From Planctomyces sp. SH-PL62 (lineage in GTDB: Bacteria > Planctomycetota > Planctomycetia > Isosphaerales > Isosphaeraceae): a stretch of 64,000 nucleotides of DNA. Positions 48,482 through 54,565 of the stretch are shown here, in pieces; position 1 is the stretch's first letter, and each line of letters begins with the position of its first letter. The stretch is from positions 3,472,001 through 3,536,000 of the forward strand of contig NZ_CP011273.1 in assembly GCF_001610895.1 (NCBI RefSeq). The letters run 5' to 3'. A program made the position numbers and the translations under genes. Below the pieces are notes generated by a model. The model had not been told where the DNA came from. It did no database searches and was given only the letters and a program-made list of their open reading frames with translations.

Positions 48482-50290
48482 TCAGCGCAGACCGGAAATC
48501 TCGTCGACGTGGTATGTCCGGCCCGCGTCGAGATTTTCGAGCCGCACGACCTTGCCCGAGGGCCAGGTGATCGTGATCTCGTCGACCTTCTCGGCCTGGC
48601 CGAGGCCGAAGGTCAGGGGGTGCTCCACCGACGAGAGATAGCTCTTGGCGGGGAAGAGCTGGCGTCGGCTGGTTTTGTCGCCGACTTTCACGGCGACCTT
48701 GGAGCCGATGGCGTCGCGATTGGACGCCTTGCCGTCGCCGGTCAGTTCGAGGCGGACCCAGCGGTTGGCGTTCCCGCCGTCGTTGCGGAGCAGCCGGGCC
48801 GGGGCGTTGTTGGCGGTGAGGACGACGTCGAGGTCGCCGTCGCCGTCGATGTCGGCGTAGGCGCTGCCGCGGCCGACCATCGGCTTGAACAGGTCGGGGC
48901 CGGCGGACTGGGCGTCGATGTTCACGTACAGCTCGCGCCCGGGCCGGCCGGAGTTCCACAGGAGCTGGGCCGATTGTTCGTAGGCCTCGCTGGCCTGGAC
49001 CTTGGAGATGTCAGGCTCCAGGTGGCCGTTGGCCGAGAGCAGGTCGAGGCGGCCGTCGAGGTCGTAGTCGAAGAAGAAGAGGCCGAACTTCAGCGGGGGC
49101 TGGGTGGCGGCCCCCAGGCCGTAGAGGTTGGCCAGGTCGGAGAATTGCAGGCTCGACGGCTGGTCGGTGACGTAGAGCGCGGTCATCTCGTTGGCGAAGT
49201 TGCCGATGGCCAGGCCGAGGCGGTCGTCGTCGAGGAAGTAGGCCCAGTCGCAGCCCATCCCCCCCCGGGGCGAGCCGGACTGGTCGAACGCCACGCCGGA
49301 GAGGAGCGCGATCTCCTCGAACTTGCCGCCTCCCTTGTTATGGAAGAGGAAGTTCTGGACCGTGTCGTTGGCGACGGCGACGTCGACCAGGCCGTCGCCG
49401 TCGACGTCGAAGGGGGCGACGCCCAGCGACTTGCCCAGCGGGGCCTTGAGGTCGGGCGTGCGGACCTGGACGCCCGAGTCCTCGCTGACGTCCGTGAACC
49501 GGCCGCCGTCGTTGCGCAAAAGGACGCAGAGCGAGCCGTTGAACGAGGTGGGGGGGCCGTAGGCGCGGCCCAGGCCGGTGAGCTGGAAGCCCTGCACCTT
49601 GTCGATGTCGGGGGTCCAGGTGATGTAGTTGCAGACGAAGAGGTCGAGGTCGCCGTCGTTGTCCATGTCGAAGAAGGCTGCGCCGGAGAGCCAGCCGTTG
49701 GGGCCCCTGGCGTTGGCGGCCTCGCTGACGTCCTCGAACTTCCCCTTGCCGTCGTTGCGGAAGAGGTGGCCCCGGCCGACGGCGGTGATGTAGACGTCGG
49801 GGTGGCCGTCGTTGTCGTAGTCGCCCACGGCGACCCCCTGGCCGTAGAACGTCTTGTCGAGCCCGGACACCCGGGTCACGTCCTCGAACTTCCCGCGGCC
49901 GTCGTTGCGATAGAGGCGTTGGGTGGGGGCGGGATCGGCCTGGTCGCCGGGCCAGGGGGATGAGTTGACCAGCAGGAGGTCCTGGTCGCCGTCGCCGTCG
50001 TAGTCGAGGAAGGCGGCGCCGGAGCCCATCGTCTCGGGGAGGAGCTTCTCGCCCCTGGCTCCGTTGAAATGGGTGAAGTCGACGCCCGACTCCTTCGTCA
50101 CGTCGACGAACTTGACGGTCGGCAGCGAGGCGGGCTCGACGACCTTGGGCCGCGTGGGCGCGACCGCGGCGGCGACGGTCGTCGGCTCCGGGGCCCTGGA
50201 GCAGCCGCCGGCCGCCAGGGCGAGCGCGGCGACGAGCGCCGGCGTGAGGAGGCGGCGCGGCGACGGCGACGGGATCGGTCGGTAGGTCAT
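48482..50290 (-). CDS. FG-GAP/VCBS and ASPIC/UnbV lipoprotein (CRTAC1-like)
   Basis: A 602-residue lipoprotein. The signal peptide ends in a lipobox-type 'LALAAGGC' with C30 as the lipidation site. After 'FVDVTKESGVDFTH' there are about eight FG-GAP/VCBS repeats of the form 'DYDGDGDQDLLLVN' and 'DMDNDGDLDLFVC', a calcium-binding beta-propeller. The C-terminus is an ASPIC/UnbV domain ('SRRQLFPAKSYLSSVEHPLTFGLG', described in parts). The ATG at 50290 overlaps the upstream stop (ATGA), so translation is coupled to the multihaem cytochrome. CRTAC1-type proteins have unknown molecular function. The pairing suggests a surface or periplasmic partner of the cytochrome. Confidence 0.9.
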   Translation of the reverse strand: MTYRPIPSPSPRRLLTPALVAALALAAGGCSRAPEPTTVAAAVAPTRPKVVEPASLPTVKFVDVTKESGVDFTHFNGARGEKLLPETMGSGAAFLDYDGDGDQDLLLVNSSPWPGDQADPAPTQRLYRNDGRGKFEDVTRVSGLDKTFYGQGVAVGDYDNDGHPDVYITAVGRGHLFRNDGKGKFEDVSEAANARGPNGWLSGAAFFDMDNDGDLDLFVCNYITWTPDIDKVQGFQLTGLGRAYGPPTSFNGSLCVLLRNDGGRFTDVSEDSGVQVRTPDLKAPLGKSLGVAPFDVDGDGLVDVAVANDTVQNFLFHNKGGGKFEEIALLSGVAFDQSGSPRGGMGCDWAYFLDDDRLGLAIGNFANEMTALYVTDQPSSLQFSDLANLYGLGAATQPPLKFGLFFFDYDLDGRLDLLSANGHLEPDISKVQASEAYEQSAQLLWNSGRPGRELYVNIDAQSAGPDLFKPMVGRGSAYADIDGDGDLDVVLTANNAPARLLRNDGGNANRWVRLELTGDGKASNRDAIGSKVAVKVGDKTSRRQLFPAKSYLSSVEHPLTFGLGQAEKVDEITITWPSGKVVRLENLDAGRTYHVDEISGLR

Positions 50291-54130: not shown

Positions 54131-54565
54131 TTAACCCTTTCCCATGCCTGGAAAGTCGCGTTGTTCCGATGAGGAGACGGACGTCAGGAGGGACGGGGGG
54201 ACGGTCGGGGGCGTGGCGATGAAGGTGGGGGCGATGGGCTCCTCGGCGGGGCGGAGCGGCGAGCCGACGGCCGGGGGGGTCGCGATCGCGAGCGACGCAG
54301 TCGAGGCGGACGGGGCCGGGGGGACGTCTCGGCCCGAGTGAGAGGGGGTCTCCACCTCGCACGGGAGCGGACGGAAGGCGGCGGGGGCGGCCGGAAACTC
54401 GACCAGGATCGCCGGGCCGGTCGTCGCCCAGGCGTCCCACGACGTCGATCGCGCGAGGATCGGGCGATCCGGGACGTGGCAGCCGCCGGCCCGGGAGTCG
54501 CGCGCGGAGACGGCGAGGATCAGGGCCGCCACCGCGATCGCCAGGCGGGGCCGGGATCGTCCCAT
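54131..54565 (-). CDS. Small secreted protein of unknown function, first gene of the cytochrome cluster
   Basis: A 144-residue protein. Its N-terminal signal (RPRLAIAVAALILAVSARDSRAGG, in outline) predicts export, after which the sequence is rich in Pro, Ala, Ser and Thr without a recognised domain. Alternative GTG start at 54607 adds 14 residues; the ATG at 54565 is preferred because it places the signal peptide at the start. Ribosome binding site is weak in both cases. It is transcribed from a very good promoter (54641-54670) and ends 3 bp before the lipoprotein gene start. Confidence 0.55.
   Translation of the reverse strand: MGRSRPRLAIAVAALILAVSARDSRAGGCHVPDRPILARSTSWDAWATTGPAILVEFPAAPAAFRPLPCEVETPSHSGRDVPPAPSASTASLAIATPPAVGSPLRPAEEPIAPTFIATPPTVPPSLLTSVSSSEQRDFPGMGKG

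Follow-up and report, generated by a model that had tools for sequence, protein, structure and literature searches.

A conserved planctomycete gene pair encodes a candidate quinone-linked electron-transfer complex of a multihaem cytochrome and an FG-GAP/ASPIC protein

A 64,000-nt stretch of the genome of Planctomyces sp. SH-PL62 (NZ_CP011273.1, positions 3,472,001-3,536,000), here called the window and used for all coordinates below, carries on its minus strand two adjoining genes that encode a 1042-aa multihaem cytochrome (50287-53415) and its partner, a 602-aa lipoprotein of the FG-GAP/ASPIC (CRTAC1-like) type (48482-50290). Their open reading frames (ORFs) share an ATGA stop/start overlap at 50287-50290 on the minus strand, as a first-pass annotation of this DNA had noted. 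The pair is real and conserved, and it is undescribed in the open-licence PMC texts that were searched. Judging from sequence and structure models, we think it probable that the two proteins form an inner-membrane, quinone-linked electron-transfer complex composed of a seven-haem cytochrome (two b and five c haems) and a propeller subunit. More tentatively, the pair could represent a quinone-coupled respiratory complex, as yet undescribed, that is shared by Planctomycetota, Verrucomicrobiota, and Acidobacteriota and in which seven haems reside on a single chain joined by a near-obligate FG-GAP/ASPIC subunit.

The same gene pair, which the first-pass annotation had proposed to look for in other planctomycetes, recurs widely among them. 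Within the host family, the cytochrome is present in 39 of 45 genomes (E 1e-20), and the FG-GAP gene lies directly downstream at all 30 family loci inspected, three of which are cut by a contig end. Across the phylum, 114 of 392 genomes contain a relative (E 1e-15), and 72 of these have the full-length type (632 bits or more). A close FG-GAP homologue was found in 67 of the 72 and is directly downstream in 61 of those 67, meaning on the same contig and strand and 0.7-1.35 kb from cytochrome residue 700. Five of the 72 have no FG-GAP protein above the cut, and one of these (G423) has a weaker one adjoining (locus L180). Viewed from the partner's side, 80 phylum genomes possess a close FG-GAP homologue, together with this cytochrome (67), a cytochrome of another subfamily (12), or none that was found (one genome, G129). 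Strains with the pair include Paludisphaera soli JC670, Singulisphaera acidiphila DSM 18658, Rhodopirellula europaea 6C, R. maiorica SM1, Roseiconus nitratireducens JC645, and Opitutaceae bacterium EW11.

A scan of GTDB recovered at least 506 relatives among at least 595 pattern matches, and the best 80 were kept as named loci. By record title these comprise 55 from Planctomycetota, 22 from Verrucomicrobiota, 2 from Acidobacteriota, and 1 from Pseudomonadota, the last being a metagenome-assembled genome (MAG) that may be misassigned. The FG-GAP gene is directly downstream in 62 of the 75 testable loci among these 80; it begins within 700 bases in 59, and its start is visible at a contig end in 3 more. 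Another 2 loci have it ~2 kb downstream, and 5 offer too little sequence. The listed ORFs of the two genes overlap by four bases at 26 of the 80 loci. At 20 further loci, chosen by hand rather than at random and mostly representing distant subfamilies, the FG-GAP gene adjoins the cytochrome gene in 18, and one of the two misses (L169) has only ~430 bases downstream. No fusions of the two proteins occur among the ORFs of these 100 loci (L071-L150 and L161-L180).

The presence of the two genes is also correlated across genomes. Among 149 genomes of the host class that are at least 95% complete, 86 carry both, 57 neither (counted as 149 minus the listed positives), 1 the cytochrome only, and 5 the FG-GAP gene only (Fisher p 5e-34, uncorrected for kinship). 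The cuts applied (E 1e-150 for the cytochrome and E 1e-115 for the FG-GAP protein) separate close homologues from paralogues by score and not by tree. Single absences, here and in the phylum counts, can be misses because only the best 2-8 first-look candidates were scored per genome. Moreover, the partner is usually retained when linkage is lost. Eight of nine whole genomes whose cytochrome locus has no FG-GAP neighbour carry a 52-57% identical homologue elsewhere (589-660 bits, with paralogues at no more than 350), and the best homologue in the ninth is only 36% identical. These nine were drawn from 11 loci without a neighbour, with L116 and L134 (1.1-1.2 kb seen) left out. In one genome (G068), the two genes are 552 kb apart on the same contig. 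Both adjacency and co-inheritance support the annotated pair as a conserved unit.

The cytochrome is organized as a five-helix membrane domain (residues 1-200), a region with five c-haem motifs (~221-480), an immunoglobulin-like (Ig-like) domain (~485-672), and a TPR region (~690-1000). Its CxxCH motifs are at residues 230, 280, 313, 379, and 430. When the protein was shuffled 5000 times, 14 shuffles contained one such motif and 0 contained more than one. Pfam matches above cut-off are Cytochrome_C554 (29.3 bits, cut-off 20.8) and TPR_16 (36.4 bits, cut-off 32.7), and an NCBIfam scan gave no match near cut-off. An AlphaFold2 model of the whole protein, built from a 71-sequence alignment, has a mean predicted local distance difference test score (pLDDT) of 86.8 and a predicted template-modelling score (pTM) of 0.84. 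Past the membrane helices, it shows short helices that make up the haem domain, then a beta sandwich at ~490-672 and a helical TPR domain at ~690-1000.

Residues 221-672 of this model resemble 5ze8, the penta-haem cytochrome c552 of Thermochromatium tepidum, with a VIA-align Z score of 13.7 and a root-mean-square deviation of 3.7 over 343 of 385 residues. The rows that follow 5ze8 are TPR proteins, mostly aligned at other residues. A sequence profile built from 27 proteins likewise places 5ze8 at the top (E 3.1e-4), followed by the multihaem selenoprotein cytochrome MccSep (E 0.023). A whole-chain Foldseek search returned a list filled by TPR proteins and nothing below E 0.001. The description of this protein as a TPR cytochrome with five CxxCH motifs and a c-haem ectodomain is thus borne out.

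All five haem motifs are retained in each of 100 cytochrome family proteins (the 80 named loci and the 20 further ones; 99 are distinct, since L162 duplicates L090). Five canonical CxxCH motifs are present in 78 of the 80 named cytochromes, and the fifth motif is CX3CH in the other two (L084 and L090). In the most distant subfamily, B2, the first motif is CX4CH in 7 of 8 members (L161, L172-L176, and L178). This retention of Cys-Cys-His despite changes in spacing argues for genuine haem attachment. The host genome encodes ResB of the System II haem-attachment pathway, and CcmF has a sub-threshold match only. From these sequence patterns, five c haems are predicted to be attached to the cytochrome. 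Candidate distal ligands are conserved as well. Among 71 aligned subfamily A sequences, the window included, H246, H364, H459, and H537 are invariant and H403 is present in 70. Subfamily B rows have Glu or Gln aligned with H403, a comparison from which L177 was left out because its row is another cytochrome ORF.

The membrane domain resembles a cytochrome b that carries two haems, one pair of histidines being in helix 2 (H71 and H89) and the other in helix 4 (H143 and H157). Helices span residues 25-55, 62-93, 99-122, 133-159, and 166-188 in the AlphaFold2 model. Basic residues are concentrated near the start of the protein and in the loops that follow helices 2 and 4, and the N-terminus is accordingly predicted to be cytoplasmic and the haem domain periplasmic. 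The first-pass annotation had pointed to five histidines in this region. Four of them are invariant in all 71 aligned sequences, whereas the fifth, H187, is His in only 57. The spacing H-x17-H...H-x13-H ahead of the first haem motif occurs in all 100 family proteins, and it arose in 6 of 20000 shuffles of the window cytochrome's N-terminus.

Modelled alone, the membrane domain reaches a pLDDT of 85.2. Its top Foldseek match is 1kqf_C, the FdnI subunit of formate dehydrogenase N (E 0.053, probability 1.00). Ranks 2-6 are NOX5, STEAP2, and STEAP4, and a hydrogenase cytochrome b and a b561 protein are at ranks 8 and 23. The VIA list is headed by hydrogenase cytochrome b and cytochrome b6 (ranks 1-4, Z 8.2-8.3), has FdnI at rank 9, and also contains a designed two-haem bundle. 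Pfam searches of 52 membrane domains matched at most 11 of them to any one family (DUF7139, best E 8.5e-4), and searching the PDB with the membrane-domain sequences gave chance-like rows only (best E 0.079). The fold evidence is modest, and it is the histidine pattern on which the case for two b haems rests. The earlier comparison to a cytochrome b nevertheless stands, given a 2+2 His pattern without exception and FdnI as the best Foldseek match, and the membrane domain may well be of the di-haem type.

The partner protein scores far above Pfam cut-offs for FG-GAP_3 (122.3 bits, cut-off 26.9) and UnbV_ASPIC (72 bits, cut-off 23.4), and it resembles cartilage acidic protein 1 (structure 9etn, E 3.2e-17). 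No conserved haem motif or redox-active cysteine was found when FG-GAP partners were inspected for them. The protein in the window is a lipoprotein with FG-GAP and ASPIC domains, as annotated, but its lipoprotein nature is lineage-specific. A crude sort of 59 partner N-termini yielded 40 that are hydrophobic without a lipobox (among them L071, which yet has GGC), 7 with a lipobox, and 12 unsorted. Partners with a hydrophobic helix and no lipobox are mostly from outside Isosphaeraceae, and this type of N-terminus points to a partner that remains at the inner membrane next to the cytochrome.

The location of TPR repeats differs among subfamilies. In L161 and L175, repeats are present at the C-terminus of the FG-GAP partner, and Pfam finds none on the corresponding cytochromes; the L172 partner has C-terminal HEAT repeats. 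That TPR repeats can be carried by either the cytochrome or the partner, depending on subfamily, suggests a TPR-propeller contact within one complex. The proposal that TPR and propeller parts serve as docking modules gains support from this distribution. In a quick tree of 61 FG-GAP proteins (28 of 55 subfamily A rows taken at random, 14 B rows, 18 P rows, and the window; several branches are long), one starred group (99) unites those linked to the main cytochrome type (A) with seven linked to subfamily B1, and those linked to B2 are elsewhere. The starred group also includes four P rows, each a second or neighbouring copy at a cytochrome locus.

The host genome has nine UnbV/ASPIC matches. 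At the 8 other than the window's partner, examined in 7 stretches of 5-8.5 kb, no ORF with a CxxCH motif adjoins. Four of these other ASPIC proteins have N-terminal TPR repeats, three over cut-offs and one (L153) just under.

Based on this anatomy, we propose the following mechanism. The membrane domain would hold two b haems, one near each face, with H71 and H143 probably ligating the haem on the periplasmic side and H89 and H157 that on the cytoplasmic side. This domain would exchange electrons with the quinone pool and pass them to five c haems in a periplasmic pentahaem of the T. tepidum c552 type, to which the Ig-like domain belongs. The FG-GAP/ASPIC protein would be a non-redox, probably calcium-binding propeller subunit at the same membrane. 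It may dock on the cytochrome, by way of TPR repeats in those subfamilies that have them, and build a landing site for a periplasmic electron acceptor, or a donor. Haem attachment, the b haems, quinone use, contact between the partners, and an acceptor are all predictions, and the direction from quinol to periplasm is the one we favour.

The preference for quinol oxidation derives from the finding that no third gene widely accompanies the pair. When ORFs in the flanks of the 100 loci, many of them short, were clustered, those of the 25 printed clusters that occur in 10 or more loci are the two genes themselves or apparent shadow frames, and nothing else is found in more than 9 of 100 loci. An outer-membrane barrel gene is likewise not evident as a third gene recurring in more than 9 of 100 loci, no search having been aimed at barrels at the locus or genome-wide. 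The first-pass annotation had envisioned a route from the quinone pool to an external or periplasmic partner. The lack of a widely recurring third gene gives an external partner no support, although an outer-membrane partner encoded elsewhere may exist.

Several observations weigh against an electron-transfer complex of this kind. At 11 of the 80 named loci, the FG-GAP gene is not directly downstream despite at least 1 kb of sequence, and L168 has none in 4.8 kb downstream. Five class genomes (G028, G032, G451, G490, and G496) have the FG-GAP gene but no cytochrome at E 1e-150, a weaker cytochrome relative (E 1e-20) having been excluded for G028 and G032 only, and G446 has the cytochrome with no close FG-GAP homologue. 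G028 and G032 belong to the same genus as the window, and their loci (L151, G028:C1:1111500-1118500; L152, G032:C112:73000-80000) keep the FG-GAP gene and an ABC permease gene and lack the cytochrome and the small proteins described below. This check used L071 as a positive control. Loss of one gene without the other, which the first-pass annotation held would tell against a coupled system, is thus partly borne out by G028 and G032, two of the six discordant genomes among the 149. Co-inheritance is in part a product of linkage and shared descent. A TPR region on the cytochrome is unneeded for pairing because the B2 cytochromes L161 and L175 have none. Moreover, the membrane fold scores are weak: unrelated proteins appear in the Foldseek list from rank 7 onward, behind a best E value of just 0.053, the VIA Z of 8.3 is within the range that the tool rates as common among helical models, with TRPV1 rows tied, and the membrane domain in the window passes no Pfam cytochrome-b cut-off (PF01292, E 0.03, is below it). 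Finally, both small proteins encoded next to the pair are poorly conserved outside the window locus.

The G032 locus also has a zinc alcohol dehydrogenase frame between the FG-GAP and ABC permease genes. The natural absences in G028 and G032 invite a physiological comparison with their congeners.

Among alternative explanations, the strongest, which we still regard as unlikely, is that the pentahaem domain acts as an enzyme in its own right, a small-molecule reductase or oxidase with an open haem, and that the membrane domain only feeds it quinol electrons. Penta-coordinate and possibly catalytic haems have been assigned to relatives of T. tepidum c552 and ExtKL in the excerpted text of PMC11976967, and the match of the pentahaem profile to MccSep is in keeping with catalysis. 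The Glu or Gln at the H403 position in subfamily B means that one haem there may lack a His ligand. Set against this, subfamily A keeps at least five candidate distal histidines, which is enough to saturate all five haems.

Reverse flow, in which the c haems would receive electrons from a periplasmic oxidation and quinone would be reduced at the b haems, also seems unlikely. The anatomy is symmetric as to direction, and cytochrome cM552 of ammonia oxidisers is presumed to reduce quinone. In other planctomycetes, CRTAC1 genes adjoin hydrazine-synthase-like multihaem genes, according to the portion of PMC12758564 consulted. Arguing for the opposite direction is the lack of any third gene beside the pair in more than 9 of 100 loci, a figure that should be read with the short flanks and the unannotated minor recurrent genes in mind. 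The T. tepidum relative, reportedly described as low-potential in the title of one paper, also suits a reductive chain better.

It is rather improbable that the FG-GAP protein serves only in assembly or maturation of the cytochrome instead of being a stable subunit. The absence of haem motifs and redox cysteines in the partner would suit such a role, but a dedicated maturation factor does not explain why five class genomes keep the FG-GAP gene without the cytochrome, and TPR repeats on one protein or the other suggest a lasting contact. Least plausible is the notion that the genes adjoin merely because an ancient operon was passed down, and that their products act independently. In its favour, nearly all loci of the host family show the linkage, and G028 and G032 lack the cytochrome alone, but this view must contend with joint absence from 57 of 149 class genomes, joint retention when unlinked, pairing that persists in three divergent subfamilies, and a quick tree in which the FG-GAP proteins of cytochrome subfamilies A and B1 share one starred group.

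A quinone-linked complex of cytochrome and propeller subunit can be compared with several known systems. Like T. tepidum c552 and the pentahaem cytochrome (PHC) group, the protein in the window combines a domain of five c-haem motifs with an Ig-like domain after it, and the fold is the same. The excerpted text of PMC11976967 groups ExtKL, Gsu2801, and similar proteins as a pentahaem family with possible open haems, and it describes the PHCs of cable bacteria as soluble and extracytoplasmic, some being fused to truncated haemoglobins. Unlike the cable-bacteria proteins described there, the window cytochrome has a di-haem-b-like membrane domain, a TPR domain, and an FG-GAP partner. Because five helices precede its c part, we call that part a membrane-fused relative of the T. 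tepidum c552 group and not a plain member. The only other place in the host genome above the Cytochrome_C554 cut-off is an ORF with four CxxCH motifs (L159:2216-3814, minus strand).

Inner-membrane cytochromes of the CbcL type in Geobacter have nine c haems ahead of a b domain of the HydC/FdnI type and are taken to oxidise quinol. They resemble the window cytochrome in combining a di-haem membrane b part and a multihaem c part on one chain; the window protein differs in its reversed domain order, its haem count, and its propeller partner. FdnI, HyaC, and cytochrome b6 share with it a helical bundle containing His pairs and are among its top structural matches. In contrast to these proteins, it has His spacings of 18 and 14, five helices, and fused c haems, and it passes no Pfam cut-off for them. 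The partner has the FG-GAP and C-terminal ASPIC/UnbV domains of other CRTAC1/ASPIC-UnbV proteins and is set apart from them by a cytochrome that nearly always accompanies its clade. A quinol dehydrogenase of the NapC/NirT/CymA type was considered and rejected, as the cytochrome has five helices and not one, and no NapC/NirT family is among the 21 Pfam families returned (E up to 1).

Two small genes lie upstream of the pair on the same strand. They encode a 204-aa lipoprotein (53513-54127) with weak similarity to DcrB (E 0.0056, below cut-off) and a 158-aa exported protein (54131-54607), whose internal ATG at 54565 is the limit used in the first-pass annotation. The first-pass annotation had described a four-gene cluster; the four ORFs and their order are as stated, but the widely conserved core is the cytochrome/FG-GAP pair only. 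Homologues were found at 7 of 80 related loci for the lipoprotein and at 3 of 80 for the exported protein, some flanks being short. The exported protein is probably not part of the system, and the lipoprotein is possibly an accessory outside the conserved core. Homologues of the latter in distant planctomycete MAGs are located downstream of the FG-GAP gene (L084:6386-7093 and L090:6607-7317, both plus strand), a position unlike that in the window, and for this reason it may be a true accessory. Also near the pair, at 56825-59899 on the plus strand, is a gene for a 1024-aa protein that combines DUF7133 and HEAT repeats with a cytochrome c domain at its C-terminus.

Literature searches of open-licence PMC texts found no description of the cytochrome/FG-GAP pair. 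For FG-GAP or CRTAC1 genes beside multihaem genes, only PMC12758564 was found, and the portions seen of PMC3174227 and PMC9957290 mention both terms without linking them. In the hydrazine-synthase-like clusters in the text seen of PMC12758564, a CRTAC1 gene neighbours multihaem genes, and some of the latter encode a cytochrome c554 domain at the N-terminus. As far as Pfam and NCBIfam annotation shows, these clusters differ from the window pair in genes and architecture. Because CRTAC1 adjoins such genes there, the association between CRTAC1 and multihaem proteins may be a general one. A different, porin-linked cytochrome cluster is described for Verrucomicrobia in the part of PMC5615132 available.

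Many of the cytochromes and FG-GAP proteins that planctomycetes and their relatives encode have no assigned role. A near-obligate pair that crosses phyla gives both families one testable function, namely an unrecognised electron-transfer step at the membrane. It also offers a possible structural reason for the recurrence of CRTAC1-like genes beside multihaem cytochromes, hydrazine-synthase-like clusters included. If this is true, the bacterial function of the propeller family would be to provide docking faces on multihaem cytochromes in several separate lineages.

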